From positions 3,330,501 through 3,394,500 of the forward strand of contig NZ_CP054491.1 in the NCBI RefSeq assembly GCF_013343005.1: a stretch of DNA of 64,000 nt, written 5' to 3'. Positions 11,518-44,248 of the stretch are shown here, piece by piece. The notes beneath the pieces were generated by a model. It was not told where the DNA came from. It did no database searches and was given only the letters and a program-made list of their open reading frames with translations. The position numbers were made by a program, and so were the translations under genes. This DNA is from Candidatus Reidiella endopervernicosa (lineage in GTDB: Bacteria; Pseudomonadota; Gammaproteobacteria; GCF-013343005). Each line of letters begins with the position of its first letter. The first letter of the stretch is position 1.

Positions 11518-13437
11518 ATGGAATCGACGGCCAGCGCACACGAGCGCGCCACTGCACTACTGAGTGCAGGGCTGCTCGATGATGCGGAATCGCTCTGGTT
11601 AAAGATTCTGCATGAGTATCCCAATGCTACCGATGCTCAGCATGGTCTCGGCACCATAGCACTTCAGCGTGGCGATCTGGAGCGCGCGATAGAACTACTT
11701 GAAAGCGCCACCTCAGCTCCACAGGAGAACGCCCAACACCTTAAAGACCTTGGCAACGCTTATGCATCTGCAGGAAAAGGAGAGGCGGCTGAAAACGCGT
11801 TCAGAACTGCCATCAACGTCGACCCAGACTTTTTCGCCGCGCATGCCAATCTTGGTAATTCACTTCTTGCTCGAGGTGAACCTGAACAGGCGATAACCTG
11901 CTATCAGACTGCCATCAGCCTACGTCCAGAAATCCCGCAGCTCCACGACAATCTTGGCACCGCACTACGCTCCAAAGGTGACCTGAGAGCCGCTGCGGAG
12001 GCGTATCAGAAAGCACTCGATATTGCGCCCACTCTGCTCACTGCCCGAATCAACCTGGGTAACGTACTGATCGATCAAAAGCAATATCAGCGCGCTATCA
12101 CACTATTTAGTGATATCTCCGAACAGCACCCAAACATCCCGGACGCCTTCGTTGGCCTTGGCATCGCACAGATGTGGCTCGACCAGTTTGAAGCTGCACT
12201 TACCGCCTTCAACCATGCAGTTAAACTCAACCCCAGACTAATCGACATCCATTTCAAACTGGGACAGATCTACAACGCTCTACATCGACTTCCCGAGGCC
12301 AAAAAGGCACTCATACGCGCCATAGAACTCAACGCCTCACATCTTGGCGCACAACGCCTGATGGCCACCCTGCTGCGACGAGAGGGCAATATCGAACAGG
12401 CTTTATCGCTACTCAATCAAATTGATATCAGAAACAATCTGGGTGAAGAAGCCGGCTCAATACACTTTGAGCTTGGCATGCTTTACGACCGAGCTCAGGA
12501 GAGCGCAAAGGCATTCCACCACTTCTCTGCTGGCAATAACATTCGTAGCGCAGAAATTAACGATGGTAGCGTACAAAAAGAGCGCTATCTGAATCAGCTT
12601 AAACAGCTACACCAGCAGTTCTCACCGGAGTGGTTCGGACAGTGGCATCAGACATCGATTACCGACCAACTGCCCTGTCCGGTTTTCATCGTCGGCTTTC
12701 CACGCTCAGGCACCACTCTTCTGGACCAGATCCTCAACAGCCATCCTAATCTCAGAGTAATGGAGGAGCAACCGGTCATCGCATCACTGATGGGGTTGGT
12801 CAATGAGCAGGGAGGAGGATATCCAGGGGGATTGGCTTCAATCAGCGATGAGTTGCTGGAGACGCTGCGTCGTGACTATTTCAACCTCGCCTCAGAGAGG
12901 GTCAAACTCAAGCCTGGAGAGCAACTGGTCGACAAATTACCACTCAACACGATCCGTATCGGCGCAATTCATCGGCTCTTTCCAGACGCCAAGATCATCC
13001 TCTCTCTTCGTCACCCTTACGACGTATGCCTTAGCAACTTCATGCAGGACTATCATCTCAATGATGCGATGGCCAACTTCCAGACCATTGAAGATTGCGC
13101 CAAACTCTACTCCACCGTCATGTCACTGTGGCAGCAGTATGAAACAACTCTTCCGCTCAATGTTCACAAGCTACCCTATGAATCACTCGTGGATAACCTG
13201 GAAACAAGTAGCCGCGAAGTGATCGACTTCCTCGGTCTGGAGTGGGACCCAACTCTACTCGACTACGCCAGTCACGCCAGAGATCGCGGCTTTATCAAAA
13301 CCCCCAGTTACCTGCAGGTCAGCGAACCGATCTATCAGCGCGCCAAATATCGTTGGCGACGCTACATCAATGAGCTTGAACCCGTGATTGAACAACTAGC
13401 CCCCTACGCCTCTCATTTTGGCTACCCAACCGAATGA
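11518..13437 (+). CDS. TPR-repeat sulfotransferase
   Basis: A 639-residue protein with two parts. Residues about 1-300 are tandem tetratricopeptide repeats (for example LGNAYASAGKGEAAENAFRTA, LGNSLLARGEPEQAITCYQTA), a protein-binding scaffold. The C-terminal part is a PAPS-dependent sulfotransferase domain: the 5'-phosphosulfate loop VGFPRSGTTLLDQIL (about 394-408) and the 3'-phosphate motif LSLRHPYDVCLSNF (about 498-511). The acceptor is unknown; such fusions are often credited with sulfating proteins or glycans. It starts 14 bp after purH but has no known purine role. Codon use resembles its neighbours. Confidence 0.88.
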   Translation: MESTASAHERATALLSAGLLDDAESLWLKILHEYPNATDAQHGLGTIALQRGDLERAIELLESATSAPQENAQHLKDLGNAYASAGKGEAAENAFRTAINVDPDFFAAHANLGNSLLARGEPEQAITCYQTAISLRPEIPQLHDNLGTALRSKGDLRAAAEAYQKALDIAPTLLTARINLGNVLIDQKQYQRAITLFSDISEQHPNIPDAFVGLGIAQMWLDQFEAALTAFNHAVKLNPRLIDIHFKLGQIYNALHRLPEAKKALIRAIELNASHLGAQRLMATLLRREGNIEQALSLLNQIDIRNNLGEEAGSIHFELGMLYDRAQESAKAFHHFSAGNNIRSAEINDGSVQKERYLNQLKQLHQQFSPEWFGQWHQTSITDQLPCPVFIVGFPRSGTTLLDQILNSHPNLRVMEEQPVIASLMGLVNEQGGGYPGGLASISDELLETLRRDYFNLASERVKLKPGEQLVDKLPLNTIRIGAIHRLFPDAKIILSLRHPYDVCLSNFMQDYHLNDAMANFQTIEDCAKLYSTVMSLWQQYETTLPLNVHKLPYESLVDNLETSSREVIDFLGLEWDPTLLDYASHARDRGFIKTPSYLQVSEPIYQRAKYRWRRYINELEPVIEQLAPYASHFGYPTE

Positions 13438-13952: not shown

Positions 13953-13981
13953 AAAAAAAAGGGGCCCCGGAGGAGGCCCCT
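13953..13981 (-). terminator. Rho-independent terminator (minus strand)
   Basis: Read on the minus strand, GGGGCC (13980-13975) pairs with GGCCCC (13966-13961) and is followed directly by eight T residues, then a second T-rich run. It faces away from purD and cannot serve the plus-strand sulfotransferase gene as a T-tailed terminator, so it implies a minus-strand transcript from the gap. Confidence 0.85.
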
Positions 13982-14077
13982 ATAACTCACCACAATGCTA
14001 AATTTCACTAGTCACTCTCTAGACCGGGATCCTGCGAGCAAGGCCCTTACACCTCACTCCAGATCACCCAGTGACTA
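13953..14077 (-). ncRNA. Candidate sigma54-driven structured small RNA
   Basis: A predicted ~125-nt RNA on the minus strand. The start at ~14077 is set by a sigma54 promoter. The 5' eight bases (14077-14070, TAGTCACT) pair perfectly with AGTGACTA at 14016-14009, giving a closed structured 5' domain. The 3' end is a strong hairpin plus T8. No start codon with a ribosome site and no known RNA family was recognised. The agreement between the promoter-derived start and the stem that begins exactly there is the best support. Confidence 0.55.
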
Positions 14078-14086
14078 ATCCCTATA

Positions 14087-14104
14087 TAGCAATCAGCGCG
14101 CCAA
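14087..14104 (-). promoter_or_regulatory. Candidate sigma54 (-24/-12) promoter
   Basis: The minus strand reads TTGGCGCGCTGATTGCTA. The invariant GG (14102-14101) and GC (14090-14089) are exactly 10 bp apart, and the whole fits TGGCAC-N5-TTGCW with one change (A to G). The predicted start is ~14077. A perfect long palindrome sits at about -88, where a sigma54 activator would bind. Confidence 0.6.
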
Positions 14105-14154
14105 TCTGTATCTTATTGATTTAATAGGGTATTGACATGTTGCGCCATGCAGCG

Positions 14155-14176
14155 ATGTCATGTCATGACATGACAT
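14155..14176. promoter_or_regulatory. 22-bp perfect palindrome, candidate activator site
   Basis: ATGTCATGTCA followed by its exact reverse complement TGACATGACAT. Each arm holds two TGTCA units, so the site could bind a dimer or a pair of dimers. The centre is ~88 bp upstream of the predicted sigma54 start on the minus strand and ~137 bp upstream of purD on the plus strand, so it could serve either; the sigma54 pairing is favoured. Confidence 0.6.
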
Positions 14177-14302
14177 TTCACGCTACTTGTCATGAGTTTG
14201 TCCGACTGCCAAGCGACAGCCGTGTCACACCAAGACAGCGCCGAACGTAAGCAGTAAGATACGGCCCCTAATCTATTTCTGAAGCTGAAGGTGGGAGTCG
14301 AG

Positions 14303-15592
14303 ATGAAGGTTCTGGTTATCGGTAGCGGCGGTCGCGAGCATGCACTAGCCTGGAAGGCAGCGCAGTCATCTGAGGTTGAGAAGGTATTTGTCGCCCCAGG
14401 CAACGCCGGCACCACGCGAGAAGCGAAGCTGGAGAATGTCGATATCGGCGTCGAGGATATCGAGGCACTGATCGCTTTTGCCAAAGAGCAGGTGATCGAC
14501 CTTACCATCGTCGGTCCTGAAGCACCGCTGGTCATCGGCGTGGTTGACGCCTTTGAAGCTGAGGGACTTCGCTGCTTCGGGCCCAGCAAGGGCGCAGCAC
14601 AGCTCGAAGGCTCCAAGGTCTTCACCAAGGACTTCCTCGCCCGCCACCAGATCCCAACTGCCGACTATCAAAACTTCACTGAGGTTGAACCCGCCCTCGC
14701 CTACCTCGATCAGGTGGGTGCACCGATTGTGATCAAGGCCGACGGCCTCGCCGCTGGCAAGGGCGTCATCGTCGCCATGACCCTCGAGAAGGCCGTGGCA
14801 GCGGTAAAGGATATGCTTGCTGGCAACGCCTTCGGCGAAGCGGGCCACCGCGTCGTCATCGAGGAGTATCTGGAGGGTGAGGAGGCGAGCTTCATCGTCA
14901 TGGTCGATGGTAAAAACATTTTGCCGATGGCGACCAGCCAGGACCACAAGCGTGTGGGCGAGGGCGATAGCGGTCCCAACACCGGCGGCATGGGCGCCTA
15001 CTCCCCCGCTCCGGTGGTTACCGCTGAGATCCACAACCGCATCATGGCCGAGGTGATTGAGCCTACCGTCGAGGGCATGGCCGACGAAGGCAATCCCTAC
15101 ACTGGTTTCCTCTATGCGGGACTGATGATTTCCGCTGACGGCACTCCGAAGGTAATCGAGTACAACTGCCGCTTCGGTGACCCAGAGACTCAACCGATTA
15201 TGATGCGTCTGAAGTCGGATCTAGTCGCACTCTGCAATACCACCCTTGACCGCAAGCTCGACAGCGCCTCAACCGAGTGGGATGAGCGCGCCTCAATGGG
15301 TGTGGTACTCGCCGCAGGCGGCTATCCCGGCAGTTACGGCAAGGGAGATGAGATCAACGGCCTTGATGGTGCTGATTCAGAGAATGCCAAGATCTTCCAT
15401 GCTGGCACAGCAAACAAGGATGGTAGTGTCGTCACCGCCGGTGGACGCGTGCTCTGCGCCACGGCATTGGGCAATAGCGTCAGCGAAGCACAGGCCAACG
15501 CCTACGCACTGGCCGACAAGATCTCCTGGAATGGTATGTTCATGCGACGCGATATCGGTTATCGCGCCATAGAACGTGAAAAGGGAGCCTAA
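14303..15592 (+). CDS. purD: Phosphoribosylamine-glycine ligase
   Basis: PurD makes glycinamide ribonucleotide, the second step of purine synthesis, with an ATP-grasp fold. The 429-residue protein starts [21 protein letters not shown] and has [13 protein letters not shown], the ATP loop [14 protein letters not shown] (about 145-158) and the metal-binding [11 protein letters not shown] (about 289-299). ATG 14303 is chosen because GGGAG lies 5 bp upstream and it gives the family start; the frame opens four codons earlier. Its stop codon falls inside the loop of the terminator that follows. Confidence 0.97.
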
Positions 15593-42849: not shown

Positions 42850-43378
42850 CGGCTGTTGTTGGCGATCTTTCGCAGCATGGAACAGATCACCCTCGGACTG
42901 CTGCACACCTACCGCTACTACGGACCGGTGCCACCCTTCGCTCTACTCGAGCTGCACCAACTCTACTACTATGCTGAACAGAGTGGCTGCGAGAACACTC
43001 CGGCGATCGGACGACGCGACAGTAGCACCACCGCCAATCTCTACAAACGAGTGATGTTACTGACCATCAGTGATCCATTCCGACTCGGCGAGAATGAGCT
43101 GCTGCCACTGTTTCAGGCCTATCTAGAACTGGCACCACTCTGCCGCATCGACAGCGCCGAAGCGGCCAAGTGTCAGGGCAGCTTTCTGATCGACCTCAAT
43201 GGCGACTCTCCCCCGCGCGGCTGCAAGGAGGGCGATGTTGAGCGTGCCGAAGTGCCGCGAATTTACGACATTGGACCACTGCTCGATGAGCTGGAACAGC
43301 GCATTGAGAATGGACATGAAAAACAGGCCGAACCGATGCTGGCGCGTCTCTCCAGCCAACACCGAGGCCAGGAACCCG

Positions 43379-43658
43379 GGGAGTCGCTATTTTTGCGAAA
43401 GTTTGTTTTGGGCATCCAAGCCCAAGCAAACAGCAAAAACTTAACGCGACCGTTTATGCCTTCGGCGCCCCGACCGTCCTGCGTACGTTGCGTAATCACC
43501 TCTTCGCGGCTCTACACAACTCCCTCAGTGACTCTACGCCGACATAAAGCCGCTGCTGCATCTTCTTCGTCGTCCGCTCGCGCTCTCAACTACGAATATG
43601 CAGACGGCGTCGACTATCGCGGACTAACCGCCTTCGCTTCGCTATCCATGGCGGTCAG
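43379..43658 (+). mobile_element. 277-bp CG-flanked element, copy 4 (hypothetical gene, sense, read-through)
   Basis: 280 bp; with one CG it adds 282 bp, or 94 codons, and has no stop in the host frame. The host ORF 42856-44190 therefore reads straight through it, inserting a stretch that includes RRHKAAAASSSSSARALNYE. Extra bases in the T-run (near 43391) and A-run (near 43436), compared with other copies, are what keep it open. Confidence 0.9.
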
Positions 43659-44248
43659 CGAACGAAAGCTGCCCCGTGAATCGGCCGAGCGTTATGTGTC
43701 GTTGATTGTTGGCCTGGAGGGCATCTGTGACTATCTCACCAGCCACCGAGAATCCCTGCTCTCAAGCTGGCGCGTGGTCAATGAACACAACGAAGGTAAC
43801 CAGCTCAGTAGTACAACCAGCAGCGGTGTCGAGATACACGTCGGGGAGGTGATCGCCATGCCAGTCCCGGATGACAATCCGCCGCAACTCGCCACCGTAC
43901 GTTGGCTAAAAAATGATGGTACCGGCCATATAGAGATCGGCATCGCCTTTCTCGATGGCAACGCCACACCTACCCACTGTGGCTATGATGATGAACCGGC
44001 CAGGGCATCGTTGTTCCTAAAGGCGCAGCCTGAGATCGGCCTACCGACAACGATGATTGCTGCCAAGGGCATCTATCAAAAGGGACGCCAGCTGCACCTA
44101 ACCGCCGTCACCGGTCAACGGGTAAAGGCCAAGGCGGGCTCGAGTCTGGTGCAGACGCAACGTTTCGATCAGTTCACCCTGCACAAGTAAATATTAAATT
44201 CATCACAGGGCGTTATACTCCACAACATCACAGGTAACGGACAGCACC

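Follow-up and report, generated by a model that had tools for sequence, protein, structure and literature searches.

A candidate sigma54-dependent small RNA gene shares a rare activator site with a napC/FCSD operon and may belong to the regulon of a sensorless EBP

The window analysed here is a 64-kb stretch of DNA (positions 3,330,501-3,394,500) from a complete 3.45-Mb gammaproteobacterial genome. Within it, on the minus strand at 13953-14077, we describe a candidate small RNA (sRNA) of ∼125 nucleotides (nt), predicted to run from a -24/-12 promoter to the end of a T8 tract. The explanation that we favor, with moderate confidence, is that it represents a free-standing sigma54 sRNA gene that is part of the regulon of an orphan sigma54 enhancer-binding protein (EBP) and that its RNA probably acts by base pairing. 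The promoter, the terminator, the predicted fold, the shared control sites and the recurrence of these sites at an operon in other families were read from the sequence. The strength of the case lies in a control site that is shared, rare and recurring, and not in the sequence of the RNA.

Results

A predicted sigma54 promoter in the gap upstream of purD. The candidate unit occupies the gap that follows a TPR-sulfotransferase gene (11518-13437, plus strand), to which it is convergent, and precedes purD (14306-15592, plus strand; an alternative GTG start is at 14291), from which it diverges. The sigma54 promoter, TGGCGCGCTGATTGCT at 14103-14088 on the minus strand, has the GG-N10-GC spacing claimed for it in the original prediction and agrees with the consensus at 11 of 12 positions. 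If the C of the GC element, at 14089, is taken as -12, the transcription start (+1) is at 14077. The rpoN gene was found in the host genome, and no ORF of at least 120 amino acids crosses the promoter at 14088-14103. Across the whole genome, this promoter is 1 of 12 matches to the strict sigma54 consensus TGGCNNGNNNNTTGCW. A match of 11/12 quality is expected by chance about 0.5 times per 64 kb, and therefore the promoter by itself is weak proof; the whole arrangement of promoter, palindrome, fold and terminator is above chance. Between the promoter and the activator sites described below, a possible IHF-like site (AATCAATAAGATA; 14109-14121, minus strand) was recognized by eye, with one mismatch to WATCARNNNNTTR.

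The candidate RNA is predicted to be structured, noncoding and terminated. The predicted start at 14077 is the opening base of an 8-bp stem (14077-14070 with 14016-14009, minus strand), a long-range 5' stem that closes an inner hairpin. The stem had been proposed from the sequence before; it is an exact complement by inspection and forms part of a 10-bp helix in the minimum-energy fold. The full candidate RNA has a folding energy of -53.3 kcal/mol (z = -3.9; none of 200 shuffled sequences was as stable), and the RNA body minus the terminator has a z score of -2.5 (3 of 300 shuffled sequences were equally stable). At 13981-13953 (minus strand), a 9-bp stem with a 4-base loop and a T8 tract forms an intrinsic terminator that works on the minus strand only. 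The strong T8 terminator proposed to end the RNA at about 13953 was confirmed in the sequence; it is the sole terminator of such strength in the window, and none was obtained in 30 shuffled windows. A second T9 run (13949-13941, minus strand), which follows a GCC beyond the terminator, is a possible back-up release site.

No plausible ORF was found in any frame of the candidate RNA, nor did it match any Rfam family, including GlmY/GlmZ, CrcZ, Qrr and Rsm. By prediction, it is a structured, short noncoding RNA that ends in an intrinsic terminator. With sigma54 matches expected at about 0.5 per 64 kb and purD diverging from the same gap, the unit might also be explained without any independent sRNA: the promoter would be a chance match, the fold and terminator would belong to some other minus-strand transcript, and the TGTC sites would serve purD or be idle. 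There is, however, no minus-strand gene between purD and the terminator, and purD is transcribed away from it; since the terminator works on the minus strand only and no gene enters from the purD side, a noncoding minus-strand transcript is expected from the gap. The recurrence of the site-plus-promoter set at a conserved operon (see below) argues in the same direction, and we consider an explanation by chance quite unlikely.

The predicted fold combines a stable 5' stem-loop, whose hairpin loop (UGUAAG) is open, with linkers that are also open and a U-tail. Because such features are typical of base-pairing sRNAs, we propose base pairing as its mode of action. An alternative that we regard as decidedly unlikely is that the RNA sequesters a protein, as a titrator of CsrA/RsmA or of Hfq/Crc, with no base pairing. 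Titrator RNAs can be sigma54- or two-component-controlled, with CrcZ and RsmZ as precedents, and the candidate RNA does contain two GGA triplets. Both triplets are, however, paired in the predicted fold and lie outside the loops, which disfavors a CsrA titrator; two triplets are also few for such an RNA, and neither the CrcZ nor the Rsm family of Rfam gave a match.

Two activator sites lie in an unusually dense cluster of half-sites. The proximal activator site (ATGTCATGTCATGACATGACAT, 14155-14176) is centered at -88 and is the 22-bp perfect palindrome that had been noted at about this position; it is the only one in the 64 kb, with 0.015 expected. It contains the motif TGTC-N12-GACA (14156-14175) and a core, TGTCATGACA (14161-14170), that is common to the promoter of the napC/FCSD operon. 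The original prediction overlooked a distal TGTC-N12-GACA site (14199-14218, centered at about -131), whose distance of 43 bp to the proximal one corresponds to about four helical turns. It also overlooked the density of half-sites, with 10 TGTC/GACA half-sites per 120 bp at the sRNA, twice the 5 found in the stretch of the window that ranks second. An additional half-site pair, TGTC-N7-GACA (14223-14237), belongs to this cluster.

The activator sites are shared with a second sigma54 promoter. The core TGTCATGACA is present in three copies in the 3.45-Mb genome: at the sRNA, at the sigma54 promoter of the napC operon and within a coding sequence. The third copy, whose coding sequence resembles a pilus-assembly gene, was set aside. 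Among the 12 strict sigma54 matches in the genome, just 2 combine the core with dense half-sites (9 and 10 per 160 bp), namely, the promoter of the candidate sRNA and that ahead of the napC operon, at 911,242; the remaining matches have 0 to 3 half-sites per 160 bp. Likewise, the pattern of TGTC-N12-GACA with TGGC-N7-TTGC 30 to 60 bp behind it has two matches in the genome, one at the sRNA promoter and one at the napC promoter, and a reversed control of the pattern gave no match. Of the other loci from the site-plus-promoter search, all but one overlie ORFs and were treated as chance matches; the exception, L122, has no ORF over it.

A sensorless EBP is encoded next to the napC operon. Downstream of 911,242, the operon encodes a NapC/NirT tetraheme cytochrome together with an ankyrin protein, a diheme cytochrome c and a flavoprotein of the FCSD (sulfide dehydrogenase) type. 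Directly upstream of it is the gene for an EBP of 315 amino acids (G000:C1:910030-910974) with two domains only, the AAA+ domain for sigma54 interaction and a Fis-type helix-turn-helix (HTH); this gene ends ∼105 bp before the first TGTC-N12-GACA there. The whole region, from the EBP gene through napC, ankyrin, diheme cytochrome and FCSD genes, spans L097:3031-7842 (G000:C1:910030-914841). Close relatives of this sensorless EBP were found in about 45 of the 369 genomes of the class, and its HTH is nearly invariant across families in sequences aligned by eye. From adjacency and co-occurrence, we infer that TGTCATGACA together with the half-sites is the operator of this EBP.

The other EBPs of the host resemble NtrC, PilR, NtrX, a two-component regulator and two PAS-domain proteins. 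One of the two PAS-domain EBPs adjoins a sulfide:quinone reductase-like gene (L106, G000:C1:2247649-2251149; the EBP lies between this gene and a rhodanese-like gene). A decayed sigma54 EBP, interrupted by a stop or frame change, is located at G000:C1:2665311-2665717 (L109/L110). FCSD, NapC-type and sulfide:quinone-reductase-like genes are present in the genome, suggesting that the host is probably a sulfur oxidizer.

The site recurs at napC in other families, in genomes that encode the EBP. NapC relatives were taken from 29 other genomes; the napC loci of 2 of them (G316 and G239) were left out because their sequence extended barely or not at all beyond napC on the upstream side. A sigma54 promoter precedes napC in seven genomes (the host, G097, G335, G207, G083, G124 and G308). 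The exact core TGTCATGACA is present at napC in G097, where only A/T flanks it on either side, and in G335; among loci of other genomes totaling 1.03 Mb, two copies of it were found, both at napC loci (L188 and L189). The napC site in G124 is a TGTC-N12-GACA (TGTCACATACCGTCATGACA), and a looser half-site cluster lies upstream of napC in G308. In G083 and G207, a variant half-site cluster and, ∼100 bp further on, a second sigma54 promoter, TGGCCTGCTGATTGCA, precede the diheme cytochrome gene.

Each of the seven genomes in which a sigma54 promoter precedes napC encodes an orthologue of the EBP, compared with 11 of the 28 informative genomes (one-sided P value for co-occurrence, with kinship ignored, of 2.8e-4). 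In the other four EBP-positive genomes, napC has no recognizable sigma54 promoter. Several further intact EBPs in the host genome, together with these EBP-positive genomes that are without the sites, would fit a genuine sigma54 sRNA that answers to another activator (NtrC, PilR, the response regulator at L102 or either PAS-domain EBP), with the position of the orphan EBP being incidental. We think this rather unlikely, as the sites come directly after the orphan EBP gene, and no genome that has sigma54 sites ahead of napC lacks the orphan EBP. In addition, no TGTC-N2/N7/N12-GACA sites were found at any of the other EBP loci of the host.

The sequence of the RNA itself was not recovered from other genomes of the class. 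Searches of 56 and then 369 gammaproteobacterial genomes, among which the order of the host has no other member, yielded no homologue of the candidate RNA; the leftover matches were fragments of 17 to 35 nt, many of them within the terminator. A comparable unit was also missing beside purD in the purD neighborhoods of 80 other genomes. The overall claim of a sigma54 sRNA with an upstream activator is upheld as the best reading, with rpoN present and the site recurring at conserved sigma54 promoters; conservation of the RNA, which the original prediction asked for in close relatives, was not seen in these genomes of other orders.

Discussion

Taken as a free-standing sigma54 sRNA gene of the orphan-EBP regulon, the unit would work as follows. 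RNA polymerase with RpoN would wait at 14103-14088 until the EBP, having bound its TGTC/GACA sites (centered at about -88 and -131), drives open-complex formation, and a structured RNA of ∼125 nt would then be made, with its 3' end set by the T8 terminator. The most probable activator is the sensorless EBP at G000:C1:910030-910974, which would also drive the adjacent operon of napC, ankyrin, diheme cytochrome and FCSD genes. Under such co-control, the sRNA would be made when the operon is, and it could form the post-transcriptional arm of the regulon, adjusting other respiratory or metabolic mRNAs with its open loop and its linkers as the probable pairing regions. In this reading, transcription, EBP binding, a base-pairing action and targets are inferred. 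A limited target search that compared duplex energies was confined to 98 start regions, a small part of the genome, and ignored self-structure; it is unreliable, and no reliable target emerged from it. The lowest naive duplex energy in this search belongs to the start region of a 437-amino-acid protein without a Pfam match (window positions 42877-44187, plus strand), which we regard as a lead only.

We are evenly balanced on a broader proposal, which is that the sensorless EBP and the TGTCATGACA sites define a new sigma54 regulon present in several gammaproteobacterial families, with the periplasmic cytochrome/FCSD operon as a member and a new sRNA family recruited to it in this lineage. The site would in this case outline a regulon around an electron-transfer operon, and sulfur-related respiration would be tied to RNA-based control. 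A site that is rare in the genome and recurs across families links the sRNA to a named EBP and to a respiratory operon, which makes the regulator and the growth conditions directly testable.

To our knowledge, few sigma54-dependent sRNAs have been described, and these represent a handful of model lineages. The parallel to GlmY and GlrR that was drawn in the original prediction extends to the layout only. Like GlmY of the Enterobacteriaceae, the candidate sRNA is intergenic and combines a sigma54 promoter with several activator sites that are TGTC/GACA inverted repeats. IHF assists at GlmY, and a possible IHF-like sequence is present at the candidate. The sites of GlrR/QseF are TGTC-N10-GACA (PMC8745638) and have also been given as TGTN12ACA (PMC6075780). 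TGTC-N10-GACA is absent from the window, where the sites present have N12, N7 and N2 spacing. A scan of six EBPs, which did not include the NtrC-like L103, gave no GlrR-like protein: the orphan EBP scored 276 bits against the GlrR model (cutoff, 763), and the five others had no NCBIfam match at an E value of ≤1e-150. The candidate further differs from GlmY in its TGTCATGACA core and in having no adjoining kinase/EBP operon. The outer spacing of 12 and an RNA unlike GlmY had themselves been noted in that prediction, and both agree with the TGTC-N12-GACA sites and with the lack of a GlmY match in Rfam.

The Qrr RNAs of the Vibrionaceae depend on sigma54 and on LuxO, which contains a receiver domain, and SypG; they resemble the candidate in being small RNAs with two upstream activator sites and a sigma54 promoter. 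In Vibrio fischeri, the activator sites of qrr1 are located between -175 and -60, with the upstream activator sequence (UAS) TTGCAWWWTGCAA (PMC10162802). This UAS, the site of LuxO, sets Qrr apart from the candidate, which had no Qrr match in Rfam. CrcZ and CrcY of Pseudomonas, under the control of CbrB and sigma54, share with the candidate that they are stand-alone RNAs activated by an EBP and sigma54. CrcZ is longer and has repeated A-rich Hfq/Crc sites, unlike the candidate sRNA, in which no such repeated sites were seen and for which Rfam gave no match.

A literature search (full text, mostly without subscription journals) returned no sigma54 sRNA in sulfur oxidizers and no such regulon. 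The nearest parallel is from Thioalkalivibrio thiocyanoxidans, in which a sigma54 EBP has been proposed to control a cluster of thiocyanate dehydrogenase and fccAB genes (PMC5744179); the available part of that account mentions neither an sRNA nor a TGTCATGACA site. Like the orphan EBP of our host, itself a probable sulfur oxidizer, this EBP is a proposed regulator of FCSD-type genes; it is, however, partnered by a GAF histidine kinase in a two-component system, whereas the orphan EBP is sensorless. Judged by its sequence features, the candidate is best read as a sigma54-dependent sRNA of an established kind that stands outside the GlmY, Qrr and CrcZ families.
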